This document shows, in pieces, positions 36,601-43,238 of a DNA stretch of 64,000 nucleotides. Source of the stretch: Minwuia sp. GTDB taxonomy: Bacteria > Pseudomonadota > Alphaproteobacteria > Minwuiales > Minwuiaceae. The stretch is from assembly GCA_029210175.1 (NCBI GenBank), contig JARGPL010000019.1, forward strand, positions 1-64,000, in the 5' to 3' direction. Position 1 is the first letter of the stretch; the number at the start of each line of letters is the position of its first letter. The notes below the pieces were generated by a model. It was given only the letters and a program-made list of their open reading frames with translations. It did no database searches and was not told where the DNA came from. The position numbers were made by a program, and so were the translations under genes.

Positions 36601-37521
36601 TCAGAAGATCGATAATCCGGTCAGCGTCGTGAACTTCTCCAGCGCGATGCTGCCGACCAGCGAATTGCCTTGCGGGCTCAACCCCGGTGACCAGACCGCG
36701 ACGGACAGTTGTTGCGGCGCAATGGCGATGATGCCGCCGCCGACGCCGCTCTTTCCCGGCAGCCCGACATGGAAGGCGAAATCCCCCGAGGCGTCATAGT
36801 GACCGCACGTCATCATGACCGCGTTGATGCGACGTGCCCTGCGTTCCGGGACAACCTGGCGGCCTGACACGGGATCGACCCCGCGATTGGCAAGATAGAG
36901 CATCGCCCGCGACAGCCCCTTGCAGGACATTTCCAGCGCGCACTGATGGAAATAGACGTGCAGAACGTCTTCCGGCGGGTTCTGCAGGTTCCCGAAACTG
37001 CGAATGAAATTGGCCAGGGCCGCATTGCGGAAACCTGTTTCGCGCTCCGACGCGGCAACGCGGCCATCGATCCGCACCGGTTCGCCATCTGCCATTTCAG
37101 TGGCGAATTCCAGGATTGCCGCCACAGCGCCGTCGCGACCATGGCGGCTGATCAGAACATCGGTGGAGATCAGGGCACCGGCGTTGATCAGCGGATTGCG
37201 GGGGATACCGTTTTCATGCTCCAGCTGCACCAGCGAGTTGAAGGGATCACCTGATGGCTCCCGCCCCGACCGGGCCCAGAACGCATCCCCCAATATTTCG
37301 AGCGCCAGAGTCAGGCTCATGACCTTGGTGACACTCTGCAGGGAAAAGGGCTGTTCGGCCTGGCCTACGGTGAAACACGCCCCGTCCACAGTGACCACGG
37401 ACATGCCGAAGCCGTCAGGATCCACCTCTGCCAACGCAGGGATATAGTTGGCGACCCTGCCGGAGCCGCGTTCGGGCTCCACGGCTTCGGCCACCTGTTT
37501 CAGTACGGCTGCGTAGTCCAT
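36601..37521 (-). CDS. glsA: Glutaminase A
   Basis: The start is ATG 37521 (MDYAAVLKQVAE), with GGGGACGGG just upstream; the longer frame adds 13 residues lacking family match. The 306-residue serine-dependent glutaminase converts L-glutamine to glutamate and ammonia. It has the beta-lactamase-like Ser63-x-x-Lys66 in LQSVTKVMS, plus NPLINAGALIS and GLPGKSGVGGGIIAI. Length matches E. coli YbaS/YneH. It lies 60 bases after the degenerate receiver gene in the same direction; the gap carries an inverted repeat (37534-37540/37553-37559) just upstream of the ribosome site. Confidence 0.96.
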   Translation of the reverse strand: MDYAAVLKQVAEAVEPERGSGRVANYIPALAEVDPDGFGMSVVTVDGACFTVGQAEQPFSLQSVTKVMSLTLALEILGDAFWARSGREPSGDPFNSLVQLEHENGIPRNPLINAGALISTDVLISRHGRDGAVAAILEFATEMADGEPVRIDGRVAASERETGFRNAALANFIRSFGNLQNPPEDVLHVYFHQCALEMSCKGLSRAMLYLANRGVDPVSGRQVVPERRARRINAVMMTCGHYDASGDFAFHVGLPGKSGVGGGIIAIAPQQLSVAVWSPGLSPQGNSLVGSIALEKFTTLTGLSIF

Positions 37522-37581
37522 GTTCCCGTCCCCTGCTTGCACTTTTTTTCCAGCAAGCACATGGGACCGCGAAAGTCAGCT

Positions 37582-38124
37582 TCATTCGGCAGCATCCATC
37601 TCGTCATCGTCATTGAATTCGAATTCGGAAGAACGGCGTTCCATTCCACCAGGCGCACCGGTGTTGCGGAACCGGCGGCATGGTCCGGCGAAATCATCCT
37701 GATCCACGAAAGGGCGCGGATGCATCGCGATCCACGAAAGTCGATCATAGAGACCACCCGGGGACAATGGCAGGGTCAGCACCATGTTGCTGCCTGCATC
37801 CCGGCATTTGGTCACGGTCCCGATCGATGTATGGCCAAGGGTCATGAGGATGGGGATGTGGCGGGCCGGATTGCGACGATCGGAACGGATAGCCTTGACC
37901 AGTTTTGCGCCCTGTTTTCCGTCGATGTCAAAGTTGACGATCAGAAGGTCGACCATGCCACGCTGGATGATCTTCGAAGCCTGCGCCACATCCTGGGCAT
38001 TGACCACCGGGTCCGCGCCAAAGGATTTCAGGATCGACCGCGTGATCCGGAATGCAGGCTCACACGAATCCGCGACAAGAACCGAAATGTTCTTGAGATT
38101 GATTTCACCCGCCGTACCACTCAT
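37582..38124 (-). CDS. Degenerate receiver-domain protein (pseudo-receiver) with RPFV/GPCRR tail
   Basis: This is a 180-residue CheY-like protein that aligns without gaps to the paralog two genes upstream (38669-39247). Key positions are Asp19, Ser20, Asn64, Thr95 and Leu118. The usual second acidic residue, the phospho-acceptor Asp and the conserved Lys are therefore replaced by Ser, Asn and Leu, and phosphorylation at the normal site is not expected. A C-terminal tail shared with the paralog follows (HPRPFVDQDDFAGPCRRF, then an acidic end). It is the third gene of a signalling operon, 35 bases after the Hpt-like gene. The likely role is phosphorylation-independent binding (inference). Confidence 0.85.
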   Translation of the reverse strand: MSGTAGEINLKNISVLVADSCEPAFRITRSILKSFGADPVVNAQDVAQASKIIQRGMVDLLIVNFDIDGKQGAKLVKAIRSDRRNPARHIPILMTLGHTSIGTVTKCRDAGSNMVLTLPLSPGGLYDRLSWIAMHPRPFVDQDDFAGPCRRFRNTGAPGGMERRSSEFEFNDDDEMDAAE

Positions 38125-38159
38125 CTCGTTCGTCCTCTAATGCCTGTCGGCGTGTGCGC

Positions 38160-38663
38160 CTATGCGGCGCTTCCGGTTGGTTCCGGATAATGGTCCACGA
38201 GTTGCCGCAAGGCATCCATCAGCGGCGTCAGATCACCACTTCCATCACGCTTGAAATCAGGCGTACTGACCAGGCGCAGCGCCTTCAGATGCGTCTGCAT
38301 CGCATGCGGATCGTTCCGCCTGGCCTCAGTGAGGCGGTGCATCAGTTCGCAGAAGCTGTCTGCAACATGGGTGACAGCGTCATATTCGAATGTTGCACCA
38401 AGATTGCGTATCTGGTTGGCAAGATCGTAGGCCTTTTCGCCATTGGGATTCGGAAATGCTTCGTGCCCGGCGGACGCGTCCACCGCTGCCCACAGTTCAC
38501 GCAAGAGACCGTCAGTCCACTCAAGATACTCCGGCTCGAGTTCGGTCACCGCGGACTGACCAGCAAGAATGGCGTCATTCCGTGACATCGCCGGCTTCTG
38601 CTTGGCCATCTGCGAGAAACGTGTTGGCACGATCCTAGCCGTGTTTGTCTTGTTGTCAGGCAT
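38160..38663 (-). CDS. Hpt-like helical protein lacking the phospho-acceptor His (tentative)
   Basis: This is a 167-residue, mostly helical protein without membrane segments. The stretch YDLANQIRNLGATFEYDAVT followed by HVADSFCELMHRL resembles the Hpt helix pair (LAHxLKGxAxxxGxxxL), but Asn83 replaces the active His, Arg86 the Lys and Asn87 the Gly. I base the family call on this pattern and on its place between two receivers; it is not certain. In-frame ATGs at 38609 and 38588 are alternative starts. It begins five bases after the upstream receiver gene. If the call is right it cannot carry a phosphoryl group on His. Confidence 0.6.
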   Translation of the reverse strand: MPDNKTNTARIVPTRFSQMAKQKPAMSRNDAILAGQSAVTELEPEYLEWTDGLLRELWAAVDASAGHEAFPNPNGEKAYDLANQIRNLGATFEYDAVTHVADSFCELMHRLTEARRNDPHAMQTHLKALRLVSTPDFKRDGSGDLTPLMDALRQLVDHYPEPTGSAA

Positions 38664-38668
38664 GATGT

Positions 38669-39247
38669 CTACAACCTTGATACTGGTACTTGGCGAAACT
38701 CTTTCGGATAGGCCTGCACACTGGCCGACGCACTGGCCGCTGCAACTTCTCTCATTCGTCTTTCAATGTGATTTGGCGCGCCATCAGCCTTGAAGCGCCG
38801 ACACGGACCCGCATAGACCTCATGGTCCACGAATGGACGCGGCCGATGGGCAATGACAGCCAGCCGTTCGTAGAGCGCCTTAACGGAAACCGGCTTTATC
38901 ATCACAAGATTGGCCCCGCTGTCCCGACAGCGTCCGACATCGCGTGCGGTCAGATGTCCGCAGGTGATCAGCACGGGTATGTAGCGGGATGGGTGGCTGA
39001 CCGCGCGCCGCAGATCGCGGATGAACTCAGGCCCCTGCCCGTTGCCTAGGAAGTAATCGCATATCAGCACATCGATGCCACCAAACAGCAGCCGGTCCTG
39101 AGCAGCCTGCAGACTGGCGGCATGGTGGATGTATATCGCACCAAACCCCTGCAGGATTGACTGCATCACCCGTCGACCGCCTTCATTCTCGTCCGCGACG
39201 AGGAAGTTGACCTGGGCCAGATTGATTTGCCAGTCCGCGCGCGCCAT
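38669..39247 (-). CDS. CheY-like receiver protein with RPFV/GPCRR C-terminal tail
   Basis: This is a 192-residue receiver protein with intact chemistry: Asp19/Glu20, acceptor Asp64 in LICDYFLGNGQG, Thr95 in LITCGH and Lys118 in MIKPVS. The tail HRPRPFVDHEVYAGPCRRFK is shared with the degenerate paralog downstream and is not a known DNA-binding output. It is the first gene of the receiver/Hpt-like/pseudo-receiver operon. A CtrA-like box (39297-39311) nearly identical to that of fliF lies about 55 bases upstream of its start. A role in motility or cell-cycle signalling is inferred from that. Confidence 0.88.
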   Translation of the reverse strand: MARADWQINLAQVNFLVADENEGGRRVMQSILQGFGAIYIHHAASLQAAQDRLLFGGIDVLICDYFLGNGQGPEFIRDLRRAVSHPSRYIPVLITCGHLTARDVGRCRDSGANLVMIKPVSVKALYERLAVIAHRPRPFVDHEVYAGPCRRFKADGAPNHIERRMREVAAASASASVQAYPKEFRQVPVSRL

Positions 39248-39296
39248 CGCCTGCCATTCCGGGTTTGAACCAGAATTGACAATAGAGTGCGATGCG

Positions 39297-39311
39297 TAAA
39301 GTGATGGTTAA
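39297..39311 (-). promoter_or_regulatory. CtrA-like box upstream of the receiver operon
   Basis: On the minus strand the sequence is TTAACCATCACTTTACG: TTAA, seven bases, TTTA, with one mismatch to TTAA-N7-TTAA. It contains the TTAACCAT octamer typical of alphaproteobacterial CtrA sites and nearly matches the fliF box at 50193-50207. It overlaps the livM stop codon. Confidence 0.6.
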
Positions 39312-40684
39312 CGACGCACTACTTCAGGTAACAATCCCCGGGGGCTGAAACGCATCACCAGCAGCAGGATCAGACCCATGGTGAACAGCCGCATGTGCGC
39401 CGCGCTGTCGAGCAGGTGCAGCCGCAGTGCGTTGTCCTCTGCCAGTCCCGAAGTCACGGTCTGCATCAGCCAGAGGCCCGCCGGTTCAGCCTCGATCCAG
39501 ACAAACCAGATCAGGAACCCGCCCAGCACCGCACCATAGTTGTTGCCCGATCCGCCAACGATGACCATCACCCAGATCAGGAACGTGAAGCGCAGGGGAT
39601 TGTATGTACCCGGCGTAAACTGGCCATCCAGCGTGGTCAGCATCGCGCCGGCAACACCAACAACCGCCGATCCCAGAATGAAGACCTGCAGATGGCGCCG
39701 GGTGACGTCCTTGCCCATCGCGTTGGCAGCGGTTTCATTGTCACGGATCGCGCGCATCATCCGGCCCCAGGGGGACTTCAACGCCCGCTCGCTCAACCAG
39801 AGCACACCGATCAGCACAAGCGTGAACAGCACGACATAACAGAGCTTCACGAAGATCCCGGCACCATCGATGACCAGCTGCTGCAGCATGTCTGCCCGGG
39901 CCGCCGCATCAAGGCCGTCCAGCACACTGCCGTTCAGGCTCTCCACCAGATCCCGGAACCAGGTCGTTTCCTGCAGATCGATCTCTCTTGGCACCGGACG
40001 CGCAAGTCCCGTGACATTCTTCACGCCCCGGGTCAGCCAGTCCTCGTTTTTCAGCATCGCGATGATGATCTCGGAAATCCCGAGGGTCGCGATGGCCAGG
40101 TAGTCGGAGCGCAGTCCCAGGGCGATACGTCCGACGATGAAGGCGGCACCGGCGGCGAATACACCACCGACAGCCCAGGAGAAGATGATCGGCATGCCAA
40201 GGCCACCCAGGTAGCCTGTCTTCGCCGGATCGACGCTCTCGATCGCATCTACTGCCGGGTCAAAGAACGCACGGGCCGCGAAATAGCCGACACCCACGAT
40301 CAGAGCCATGCCGATGATCCGCGCCGGTCCGCGTGGCAGCCGCCGATGCGCGAAGACGGCAACGACAATCGTCGCAATGACCACCCCGAGCGCCGGGAAA
40401 ATGCCCGTGCCGCCAGCCTGCCAGGCCTCCGGCACCGGAGCCTTGGATACCAGCACACCGGCGATGCCACCAAGCGCGGCGAAGCCCATGATGCCGACAT
40501 TGAACAGCCCGGCGTATCCCCACTGGATGTTCACCCCGAGTGCCATGATCGCAGAGATCAGGCAAAGCTGGATGATCGACAGGCTGACCGACCAGGACTG
40601 GCTGAAACCGACCACCAGCAAGGCAATGCCCATGATACCGAACGTGATCAGACCACGCGAACGGGTGGCGTCTCCGGCGCTCAT
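39308..40684 (-). CDS. livM: Branched-chain amino acid ABC transporter permease LivM
   Basis: This is a 458-residue inner-membrane permease with about ten helices. Family motifs are INIQWGYAGLFNVGIMGFAA, SDYLAIATLGISEIIIAML and GRMMRAIRDNETAANAMGKD (the coupling-helix EAA-like loop), then VMVIVGGSGNNYGAVLGG. It is longer than E. coli LivM (425) because of loops at about 85-160 and 230-280. It pairs with LivH, uses LivG/LivF ATPases and receives substrate from LivK. Its start overlaps the livH stop by four bases. It is the last gene of the liv operon. Confidence 0.95.
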   Translation of the reverse strand: MSAGDATRSRGLITFGIMGIALLVVGFSQSWSVSLSIIQLCLISAIMALGVNIQWGYAGLFNVGIMGFAALGGIAGVLVSKAPVPEAWQAGGTGIFPALGVVIATIVVAVFAHRRLPRGPARIIGMALIVGVGYFAARAFFDPAVDAIESVDPAKTGYLGGLGMPIIFSWAVGGVFAAGAAFIVGRIALGLRSDYLAIATLGISEIIIAMLKNEDWLTRGVKNVTGLARPVPREIDLQETTWFRDLVESLNGSVLDGLDAAARADMLQQLVIDGAGIFVKLCYVVLFTLVLIGVLWLSERALKSPWGRMMRAIRDNETAANAMGKDVTRRHLQVFILGSAVVGVAGAMLTTLDGQFTPGTYNPLRFTFLIWVMVIVGGSGNNYGAVLGGFLIWFVWIEAEPAGLWLMQTVTSGLAEDNALRLHLLDSAAHMRLFTMGLILLLVMRFSPRGLLPEVVRR

Positions 40685-41700
40685 ATGACCTTCCCCCTGA
40701 ATATCCCGGTGGGTCTTATCAGCAGGACCACGACAAGGATGATGAAGGAAACCGCGAACTTGTAGTCGGTCGACAGCAACTGCACGAGCGTGTCCGGCGC
40801 CATGTCGTCAGGCAGCAGATAGCGCAGGAACTTCTTGTAGGCGTAAGTGATCGTGACTTCCGAAAAAGCGATCACGAAACCGCCGACGATGGCCCCGAGC
40901 GGTTGCCCGATGCCACCAACGATGGCGGCTGCGAACATGGGCAGCAGAAGCTGGAAATAGGTGAAGGGCTTGAAGCTCTTGTCGAGGCCATAGAGCGTGC
41001 CGGCAATCGCGGCCAGGCTGGCGGCAATGACCCAGGTCACCAGCACCACGCGGTCCGGGTCGATGCCGGACAGCAGCGCCAGGTCCTCATTGTCCGAATA
41101 AGCCCGCATGGACTTGCCCGTCCGCGTCCGTTTCAGGAACCAGAACAGCGCGGCAACAACGATCACCGCGATGATGACGGTCAGCGCCTGCGTCTGGCGC
41201 ACCGCGATGCCTTCGTCGAGGCCGGTGATTTCCTTGAACTCTCGGAACGTGATCAGGAACCGCGCGCCGTCCGCGAAAGACTGGTCATCCGGCCCGATGA
41301 TGAATCGTACGATGCCGTTGAGCATGAACATCACGCCGACAGATGCGATGACGAAGATGATCGGCTTGCTCTTCTGCTTGCGATAGAAGCGAAAGACAGC
41401 CTTGTCCGCGACCAGACTGATCGCAATGGCACCGGCAATGCCGAACGGCAGCGCCAGCAATGCGGTCGGCAGCGGCGCAATGCCGATGCCCCACGACTGA
41501 AACAGCCAGGTGACCAGAATGACCACCATGGTGCCGAATGCCATCAGGTCGCCATGGGCGAAATTGGCGAAACGCAGGATGCCGAATACCAGCGTGATCC
41601 CGAGCGCGCCCAGCGCCAACTGGGAGCCGTAGGCCAACGCTGGCACGACAACGAAGTTGCTGAACAGGGCCAGGGCATTGAGGATATCGACCATCATCAA
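40681..41700 (-). CDS. livH: Branched-chain amino acid ABC transporter permease LivH
   Basis: This is a 339-residue permease with about eight helices. It shows the LivH motifs LALGALGITLVFGILRFANF (then AHGDLMAFG), TGKSMRAYSDNEDLALLSGI (cytoplasmic coupling loop) and AAIVGGIGQPLGAIVGGFVI. It starts with a four-base overlap with livF and ends with a four-base overlap with livM. A hydrophilic insert at about 145-170 is slightly longer than in the E. coli protein. Part of the complete livK-G-F-H-M operon. Confidence 0.95.
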   Translation of the reverse strand: MMMVDILNALALFSNFVVVPALAYGSQLALGALGITLVFGILRFANFAHGDLMAFGTMVVILVTWLFQSWGIGIAPLPTALLALPFGIAGAIAISLVADKAVFRFYRKQKSKPIIFVIASVGVMFMLNGIVRFIIGPDDQSFADGARFLITFREFKEITGLDEGIAVRQTQALTVIIAVIVVAALFWFLKRTRTGKSMRAYSDNEDLALLSGIDPDRVVLVTWVIAASLAAIAGTLYGLDKSFKPFTYFQLLLPMFAAAIVGGIGQPLGAIVGGFVIAFSEVTITYAYKKFLRYLLPDDMAPDTLVQLLSTDYKFAVSFIILVVVLLIRPTGIFRGKVI

Positions 41701-42401
41701 CCCCCGAGGAAGGAACGGCGGACTTCCGGGTTGGCGAGCAATGCCTCCCCCGTGTCCGTGAAACGGTTCTCGCCCGTGACCAGGACGAAGCCCCGGTCGG
41801 CGATGTTCAGGGCCTGTCGCGCATTCTGTTCGACCATCAGGATGGCGATGCCGGTATTGCGGATTTCCAGGATCCGGTCGAACAGTTCATCCATGACAAT
41901 CGGTGACACGCCCGCCGTGGGCTCATCCAGCATCAGCACGCTTGGCTGGGTCATCAATGCCCGGCCGACGGCCACCTGCTGGCGCTGACCACCGGAAAGC
42001 TCCCCCGCAGCCTGCGCGCGCTTCTCGGCCAGGATGGGAAACAGCTCGAACACCTGATCCATCGTCACGCTGATGTCGTCGCGGCGCAGGAAAGCGCCCA
42101 TTTCCAGGTTTTCCTGGACGGTCATGCCCGCGAAGACATTGCTGGTCTGTGGCACGAAGGCCATGCCTTCCTTGACCCGATCCTGCGGCGACAGGGCGGT
42201 GATGTCGCGCCCCCCCAGCCGCACCTGCCCTTCGCGCAGCCCGAGCATGCCGAAAACCGCCTTCATGGCGGTCGATTTGCCCGCGCCGTTCGGGCCGACG
42301 ATGACCGCAATCTCCCCCTTGTCGACCTCGATCGTGCAGCCGCGCAGGATATCTGCCCCGCCATAGCCGCCTGTCATCGCTTCGCCGATCAGGAAACTCA
42401 T
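41697..42401 (-). CDS. livF: Branched-chain amino acid ABC transporter ATPase LivF
   Basis: The start is ATG 42401 (MSFLIGEAMTGGYG), overlapping the livG stop (ATGA); the longer frame reads antisense-like sequence from livG. The 234-residue ATPase has Walker A GPNGAGKSTAMK, Q-loop FVPQTSN, signature ELSGGQRQQVAVGRAL, Walker B VLMLDEPTAGVSP and the H-loop region replaced by the LivF-typical EQNARQAL. LivF and LivG form the ATPase dimer of the transporter. Length matches the family. Confidence 0.95.
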   Translation of the reverse strand: MSFLIGEAMTGGYGGADILRGCTIEVDKGEIAVIVGPNGAGKSTAMKAVFGMLGLREGQVRLGGRDITALSPQDRVKEGMAFVPQTSNVFAGMTVQENLEMGAFLRRDDISVTMDQVFELFPILAEKRAQAAGELSGGQRQQVAVGRALMTQPSVLMLDEPTAGVSPIVMDELFDRILEIRNTGIAILMVEQNARQALNIADRGFVLVTGENRFTDTGEALLANPEVRRSFLGG

Positions 42402-43183
42402 GTGCTGACAGGCTCCGGCTTGTTCTTCAGGCCGGTACCGAGATAGGCCTCGATCACCTGCTCGTTCGATTTCACTTCCTCGGCGGTGCCTTCCGTCAGC
42501 ACCGCCCCCTCGGCCATGACGATGACCGGGTTGCACAGGCGGGAGATGAAATCCATGTCATGTTCGATCATGCAGAACGTGTAGCCGCGTTCCTCATTCA
42601 GTCGCTGGATAGCATCGCCAATGGTGTTGAGCAGCGTGCGGTTCACACCCGCGCCGACCTCATCCAGGAACACGATCCGCGCATCGACCATCATGGTGCG
42701 ACCCAGTTCCAGCAGCTTCTTCTGACCGCCCGACAGGTTGCCCGCCAGTTCCATGGCCACATGGCCCATGTTCAGAAAATCGATCACCCCTTCCGCCTTG
42801 TCGCGGACACGGGCTTCCTCTTCGCGGATCTGACGGCCACGAAACCAGGCTCCAAGCAGATTCTCACCCGTCTGGCCGCCAGGCACCATCATCAGGTTCT
42901 CAAGCACGGTCAGGGTGGAGAATTCGTGCGCGATCTGGAATGTCCGCAGCACGCCCTTGTCAAACAGCTCATGCGGCTTCAGCCCGGTAATGTCCTCATC
43001 CGCCAGGAATACCCGGCCGGATGTCGGCGGAAATGCGCCGGCAATGACATTGAACAGGGTCGTCTTGCCTGCCCCGTTCGGACCGATCAGGCCCGTGATG
43101 GAGCCTTCGGCGATTTCCAGCGTCGCACCATTCACGGCGTGAACACCGCCAAAGCGCTTGTGGACATCATCGACGCGGATCAT
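42398..43183 (-). CDS. livG: Branched-chain amino acid ABC transporter ATPase LivG
   Basis: This 261-residue ATPase is taken from ATG 43183 (MIRVDDVHKRFGG); an in-frame GTG at 43195 would add four residues and cannot be excluded. Walker A is GPNGAGKTTLFN, signature NLSGGQKKLLELGRTM, Walker B IVFLDEVGAGVN, and the H-loop IEHDMDFI. The extended loop between Walker A and the signature is normal for LivG. It is separated from livK by a 108-base gap with a strong RNA hairpin, and overlaps livF by four bases. Confidence 0.94.
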   Translation of the reverse strand: MIRVDDVHKRFGGVHAVNGATLEIAEGSITGLIGPNGAGKTTLFNVIAGAFPPTSGRVFLADEDITGLKPHELFDKGVLRTFQIAHEFSTLTVLENLMMVPGGQTGENLLGAWFRGRQIREEEARVRDKAEGVIDFLNMGHVAMELAGNLSGGQKKLLELGRTMMVDARIVFLDEVGAGVNRTLLNTIGDAIQRLNEERGYTFCMIEHDMDFISRLCNPVIVMAEGAVLTEGTAEEVKSNEQVIEAYLGTGLKNKPEPVST

Positions 43184-43238
43184 GCGCGTCACCACTCATT
43201 CAAAAAAGAGAAAAACAAATCGGCAAACCAGAGGCGGG

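Follow-up and report, generated by a model that had tools for sequence, protein, structure and literature searches.

The Cle proteins of alphaproteobacteria, which join a single receiver domain to a C-terminal arginine-rich (ARR) tail, are the closest described counterparts of the locus studied here. The accessible text of Nesper et al. 2017 (PMC5677366) gives the ARR as a tandem [Y/F]XGP[D/E][R/K]R motif with flanking Arg, relaxed in the discussion to [Y/F]XGPX[R/K]R; CleA and CleD are activated by the binding of c-di-GMP, phosphorylation being dispensable, and the key residues are D67, R111 and RR153 in CleA and R113, R156 and R169 in CleD. Receivers in which any of the residues DD, D, T and K is missing are defined as pseudo-receivers in the accessible part of PMC12632262, which calls their activation mechanisms 'a mystery' and counts the His as missing in 0.9% of Hpt domains (90/10,312).

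Hpt proteins and the P1 domain of CheA (PF01627) provide a second point of comparison. A functional Hpt is recognised by a four-helix fold or homology and by a His in an HxxKG context. In AHP6 the phospho-His site is occupied by Asn. The plant AHP6/PHP proteins are unphosphorylatable members of the Hpt family, and their part in a phosphorelay is that of a negative partner (accessible text of PMC12115143).

The window, the whole stretch of DNA that was analysed, comprises 64,000 nucleotides of Minwuia sp., an alphaproteobacterium from the order Minwuiales (assembly GCA_029210175.1, contig JARGPL010000019.1); the source genome (G000) measures 4.09 Mb in 43 contigs. Three minus-strand open reading frames were confirmed in it, transcribed in the order RecA, Hpt-like, RecB with gaps of 5 bp (RecA/Hpt-like) and 35 bp (Hpt-like/RecB). 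An earlier note on this DNA had described a three-gene operon with two paralogous receivers around an Hpt-like protein, with which the reading frames, the Pfam matches and the 41% identity between RecA and RecB agree. The features of the locus are as follows.

39308..43195, minus strand: branched-chain amino-acid ABC transporter genes, upstream and co-directional, syntenic context outside the module (only the livM-like gene was Pfam-checked)
38669..39247, minus strand: RecA, first gene, CheY-like receiver with ARR tail, 192 aa, with D19, E20, D64, C96 and K118 (Pfam, profile alignment to CheY)
38960..38962, minus strand: Cys96 codon of RecA, at the conserved Thr/Ser site, CheY Thr87 (alignment to CheY)
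38756..38839, minus strand: ARR tail of RecA (arginine-rich, c-di-GMP-binding type), residues 137-164, with R137, Y145-x-G-P-C-R150-R151 and E162-R163-R164 (coordinates computed from the ORF start)
38160..38663, minus strand: Hpt-like middle protein (pseudo-Hpt), 167 aa (relatives, family profile, predicted fold)
38415..38417, minus strand: Asn83 codon of the middle protein, at the phospho-accepting His site (family profile column)
38289..38291, minus strand: His125 codon of the middle protein, the second His (family survey)
37582..38124, minus strand: RecB, third gene, aspartate-less receiver with ARR tail, 180 aa, with D19, S20, N64, L96 and L118 (Pfam, profile alignment)
37933..37935, minus strand: Asn64 codon of RecB, phospho-acceptor site (alignment)
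37771..37773, minus strand: Leu118 codon of RecB, conserved Lys site (alignment)
37633..37716, minus strand: ARR tail of RecB, residues 137-164 (coordinates computed from the ORF start)
36601..37560, minus strand: glutaminase gene, downstream and co-directional, probable start nearer 37521, syntenic context outside the module (ORF list, Pfam)

Among the upstream transporter genes are those that we take from their sequence to be livH, livF and livG. A scan gave 3 promoter and 3 terminator sites, where 1.2 and 2.1 were expected; none lies in 39247-39308, and the scan yielded no usable signal. A role in defence was considered and rejected, as PADLOC gave no match at E 0.01.

Both receivers match the Pfam family Response_reg (E 2.3e-11 and 2.3e-10), and no receiver match over the cut-off is found among the NCBIfam matches listed. 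The earlier note had read the letters correctly (D19/E20/D64/T95/K118 in RecA, D19/S20/N64/T95/L118 in RecB, N83 in the middle protein and RPFV...GPCRR in both receivers), but T95, which it took for the conserved Thr/Ser, is not that site. The profile alignment sets CheY Thr87 opposite residue 96. RecA has Cys at this residue and RecB has Leu, so that neither receiver is intact. RecB has lost four of the five active-site residues (S20, N64, L96, L118) and is, by its residues, an aspartate-less pseudo-receiver without an acidic DD2, the D, the T and the K; its structure model is poor (pLDDT 59.2, four-sequence alignment) and is left out of account. RecA classes as a pseudo-receiver through Cys96, since the definition in the accessible text of PMC12632262 needs one of the five residues to be missing. 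The Thr/Ser site is Cys in 6/6 RecA orthologs and the aromatic at the K-3 position is absent, Val115 taking its place. DD2 is Glu20 in the window and in three genomes of the genus (G001-G003) and Pro in two others (G004/G006); because Glu is still acidic, the former fail on the Thr/Ser site alone, and G004/G006 fail on DD2 too.

The earlier description of RecA as the one live receiver is not supported at these positions, although Asp64 and Lys118 are kept. It is linked to the idea that RecA serves as a live phospho-receiver of some kinase, with RecB and the middle protein titrating, scaffolding or reading its phosphorylation state, which we regard as unlikely. D19, the acidic E20, D64 and K118, all present in the window and in G001-G003, speak for such a role; the Cys in every RecA, the missing aromatic and the Pro of G004/G006 speak against it, and none of the genes directly next to the three-gene operon was recognised as a kinase gene.

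The tail common to both receivers, which had been called unusual, corresponds to the published ARR of the Cle proteins. Its first copy reads Y/F-x-G-P-C-R-R in RecA and RecB and fits the relaxed motif, with the flanking R137 in place (accessible text of PMC5677366). By subtraction of 3 from the CleA numbers and of 5 from the CleD numbers, and not by alignment with the Caulobacter proteins, the published Cle positions map to D64 (N64 in RecB), R108, R150-R151 and R164; placed in this way, R108, the alpha4 Arg position, is found in both receivers and the key arginines have the same spacing as in the Cle proteins. Three features count against a c-di-GMP reading: in the first repeat the Asp/Glu of the results-section motif is replaced by Cys, or by Ser in G004/G006; of the second repeat only ERR is left, or ARR in G004/G006; and a C-terminal flanking Asp of the ARR is not evident in RecA and RecB. 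By analogy with the published Cle biochemistry we expect that both receivers bind c-di-GMP, their tails being candidate c-di-GMP-binding modules that would offer each of them a phosphorylation-free input. In RecA and RecB, then, the sequence holds a candidate input, in contrast to the unexplained activation of pseudo-receivers in the accessible text of PMC12632262.

The comparison with the Cle proteins extends to phosphorylation, which is dispensable in those proteins and whose residues are degraded in RecA and RecB. Two differences stand beside it: the Minwuia receivers sit with an Hpt-like gene, a term that occurs 0 times in the main text of PMC5677366, and RecB lacks both Asp and Lys, with Cys for Asp/Glu in the first ARR repeat. 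Of the earlier proposal, it is supported that phospho residues are missing and that their losses are not local, and a scaffold or titration role for the dead parts is plausible; that dead copies titrate the live one becomes the weaker reading, since the tail common to both receivers is of a type already known to bind c-di-GMP.

The same tail bears on another alternative, that the receivers have degenerated to the point of losing c-di-GMP binding too and now form a protein-interaction module with a different input, such as nutrient state. The replacement of the ARR Asp/Glu by Cys/Ser and the weakened second repeat in Minwuia would fit this, as would the transporter and glutaminase neighbours conserved in G001-G003. 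However, both receivers retain the ARR arginines that the Cle mutants had singled out, and G004/G006 do not share these neighbours; we consider the alternative decidedly unlikely.

The window's middle protein by itself has no Pfam Hpt match, and its Hpt identity consequently rests on its relatives, a family-profile match to CheA P1 and the predicted fold; NCBIfam gave nothing for it. Three of ten relatives match PF01627 over the cut-off and five below it, the protein of G004 and one other having no match. The family profile matches CheA P1 structures (1tqg, E 1.5e-5), its top match (1.8e-9) being the designed protein BRIC1. In the AF2 model, built from four sequences, the window protein is all-helical (pLDDT 75.5) with N83 in helix 73-91; the other four AF2 models of the middle protein reach pLDDT 40-58. 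The predicted fold is of the Hpt type, against the other refutation that the earlier note had named: CheA P1 chains take the first five places in the VIA search (Z 13.7-14.6), followed closely by designed bundles at 13.6 and 12.8, helical bundles scoring high in VIA in general. Foldseek found no match below E 0.001, the best one (0.04) being CheA3 P1 with CheY6. Judged by sequence and model, the middle protein resembles an Hpt, most of all CheA P1, and lacks the phospho-accepting His. The fold and homology of a functional Hpt are found, and Asn83 stands where the His in its HxxKG context would be. Indeed, as the earlier note had supposed, a His is expected there: outside the Minwuia operon, 82 of the 97 relatives have His in this profile column. 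AHP6, with Asn at the site, resembles the Minwuia protein; the latter differs in being bacterial and gene-paired with c-di-GMP-type receivers.

A second His of the middle protein, H125 in the window, is kept in 94 of the 97 relatives, with or without the phospho-His. It could be supposed that phosphate is still carried on H125, the relay working at a shifted site, and H125 is indeed invariant in A1 and in 18/18 members of the His-less clade described below (window included). Since it is equally conserved beside an ordinary His, a structural or interface role is more likely; moreover, the HxxKG context belongs to site 83, and the partner receivers of the clade have also lost the DD2 Asp. A shifted relay therefore appears very improbable to us.

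Among named relatives, the operon is carried by two Minwuia MAGs, 'Kordiimonadales bacterium IMCC3096' and a MAG that bears the label uncultured Alphaproteobacteria. The search for RecB took in nine genomes of the family; close matches occur in five of the seven genus members (the window, G001, G002, G003 and G005), and none in G004, G006 and the other two genera. N64 and L118 are kept as a pair in 5/5 RecB, so that Asp and Lys are kept in none of the orthologs, and the 18 clade members are all without the His; the losses thus go beyond a local mutation, the case that the earlier note had named against itself. The His site of the middle protein is occupied by Asn in the window and in G001-G003 and by Gln in G004/G006; in G005 the protein is cut off at the contig end. 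The order transporter-RecA-Hpt-RecB-glutaminase is kept in G001-G003, and in G005 as far as the contig reaches; G004/G006 have RecA-Hpt without RecB and without transporter or glutaminase neighbours.

The three genes are under purifying selection, with dN/dS of 0.06-0.17 against 0.04-0.11 for the glutaminase gene and 0.02-0.07 for livH. In comparisons of the window with the other genomes dS approaches saturation, less so between G002 and G001 (0.56-1.04), where dN/dS is 0.059-0.074 for the three genes, 0.039 for the glutaminase gene and 0.023 for livH. The loss of phospho residues is old and conserved, and the operon with its substitutions exceeds chance, recurring in related genomes under purifying selection. 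In the receiver tree, which took 30 randomly drawn outgroup rows, RecB falls outside RecA of the window and G004/G006 (support 95/79); taken at face value this implies an old duplication with later loss of RecB in G004/G006, on which we do not rely as the branches are long. The source genome also encodes another tandem pair of ARR receivers, which retain phospho-Asp and Lys (G000:C7:22586-23679, L035), and an unlinked Hpt-like protein that has not lost its His (G000:C24:413141-413617, L043).

The profile of Hpt-like relatives has matches in 129 of 289 alphaproteobacterial genomes (E 1e-5). The family survey covered 80 matching regions in addition to an initial 20, one match (G002:C45, L030) being left out, and the 97 proteins are the top-ranked matches outside the Minwuia operon after its six loci were dropped. 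One gene (L125) is broken, with both fragments among the 97; without them His is kept in 81/95. The His-less rate of 15/97 is no fair rival to the published 0.9%, because 3 of the 13 rows of the search profile were themselves His-less and of the Minwuia type. A co-directional ARR receiver lies at most 400 bp away from, or is fused to, 71 of the 97 Hpt-like proteins (16 fused), and among the non-clade genes (clade member L162 left out) 70/96 have one less than 100 bp away or fused, again 16 of them fused. The receiver-ARR-Hpt fusions in a single protein are L045, L123, L136, L137, L140-L145, L149-L152, L158 and L170; Hpt is not in the list of extra domains of ARR proteins given in PMC5677366.

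Within 76 distinct ARR receivers neighbouring Hpt genes, G147, P148 and R150 are found in 76/76 and R151 in 75/76. As these receivers were taken from beside Hpt genes and had to have a match that reached over the tail, the presence of a tail is partly due to selection, the identities within it being unaffected. K118 is kept in 73/76, D64 in 62/75 and all five phospho residues in 60/76. Of 70 scored pairs, 47 have both partners intact; the defect affects only the receiver in 10, only the His in another 10 and both in 3. Loss is thus not the rule of the Hpt-ARR family, most pairs being intact; to judge by these sequences, losses have occurred repeatedly on each side of the relay, with the tail retained. 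The reverse loss, Asn at the phospho-Asp with an Hpt that keeps its His, is seen in nine ARR receivers (L094, L098, L099, L100, L105, L106, L112, L117, L119).

A C-terminal peptide resembling the FliM N-terminus (e.g. SQDEIDSLF), possibly a tethered mimic of the motor docking site, occurs in L042, L107, L121, L133, L162, L173, L174, L176 and L177. A regular expression found it in 5/78 receiver rows, and L046 and L125 were added by eye. The literature searched yielded no mention of the GPDRRR motif or of FliM-like peptides.

The closest outgroup was used as query in 385 genomes, of which 44 had a match at E 1e-9, and order-level searches were added; most of the 44, where read, hold ordinary His-bearing relatives. 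The pseudo-Hpt clade obtained in this way has 18 members from five GTDB families (support 100/99; 32 of 99 outgroup rows drawn at random), although the tree tool warned of long branches meeting at the clade node; the grouping is also favoured by the gene pairing and by a shared IRDL/IRNL-type motif that follows the His site. Its His site is occupied by N, Q, A, S, V, M or R, and by His in 0/18. For the partner receivers the count is 17, as the window, duplicates and the extra loci L182 and L184-L192 are dropped, against 18 in the tree. None of the 17 has the DD2 Asp (67/69 outside the clade) or the K-3 aromatic (56/70 outside), whereas the ARR arginines are complete in 17/17. As the members are related sequences, these losses represent one or few events kept over a long time, and the Fisher value of 4e-16 from the clade/outside survey, which treats kin sequences as independent, is not used as a probability. 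D64 and K118 are kept in RecA and in all 17 clade receivers, which favours a live RecA and which blindness to phosphorylation leaves unexplained. A FliM-like SQxxID peptide ends 5 of the 12 non-Minwuia clade receivers; the seven of family f89 are without it, and it is absent from RecA and RecB.

The genomic context of the clade touches on chemotaxis in part. In two of its genomes, both of family f30, the pair heads a chemotaxis operon: receiver-pseudoHpt-protoglobin MCP-STAS-CheY-like-CheA-CheW-CheR-CheB-CheY-like, divergent from fliG, in G153, and receiver-pseudoHpt-protoglobin MCP-CheY-like-CheA in G307. In G124 a convergent CheR gene lies downstream, the other flanking genes scanned being metabolic or regulatory, and no chemotaxis genes were found among the scanned flanking reading frames of G004, G266, G283, G189 and G209. 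The Minwuia operon lies between transporter and glutaminase genes and not in a chemotaxis cluster, which counts against an action on the motor, as does the fact that such action need not belong to every Cle protein. FliM and GGDEF are present in all nine family genomes; G000 has 12 GGDEF matches, and the N-terminal part of its FliM contains the CheY-binding-like LNQDEIDSLL. A CheA-type (dimerisation-domain) match was obtained in 9 of 13 genomes searched, not in G001, G002, G003 and the clade member G283. The two such matches in G000 would supply a kinase for a live RecA; against that role, G001, G002 and G003 carry the same operon without one. These three genomes do have FliM.

Since the site at which relatives bind c-di-GMP is kept and part of the phosphate-passing machinery is lost, the three proteins probably tune swimming by c-di-GMP in place of phosphorylation. 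The explanation that we prefer, with slightly better than even confidence, is a phosphorylation-independent, c-di-GMP-gated CheY-like module for motor tuning, in which the Hpt-fold protein is a docking partner. Here c-di-GMP, and not phosphorylation, would be the control, binding the arginine-rich tails of the Cle-type RecA and RecB together with alpha4 Arg108. Binding would remodel the alpha4-beta5-alpha5 face such that the receivers attach to the FliM N-terminus, and the FliM-bound receivers would damp or bias the flagellar motor; we infer both FliM as the target and the direction of the effect. The pseudo-Hpt, a CheA-P1-like four-helix bundle that has lost its His, would not carry phosphate but act as a docking or holding partner that holds, sequesters or stabilises RecA and RecB. 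Gene pairing and fusion suggest its contact with the receivers. RecB would be a duplicate in which the phospho-site is completely lost.

More tentatively, and with somewhat less than even confidence, the locus may represent an ancient alphaproteobacterial module that pairs a c-di-GMP-gated CheY-like protein with a permanently dead CheA-P1-like decoy, a phosphorelay partner turned phosphate-free docking subunit. In such a module the input would have passed from phosphorylation to c-di-GMP; in some lineages it would head a chemotaxis operon, and in some the receiver would carry its own FliM-mimic peptide. In Minwuia the module would lie outside a chemotaxis locus and include a second, fully phospho-dead receiver.

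Finally, the loss throughout a clade of the His and of receiver active-site residues, beside fully kept c-di-GMP-type arginines, points to an input that can be tested. The intact pair, the His-less pair and the fully dead extra receiver form a natural series for the reuse of phosphorelay parts. As far as the accessible text of the papers found in our literature search goes, none links an Hpt-type partner to Cle-type motor control; if the proposed mechanism is true, it would tie the two together.
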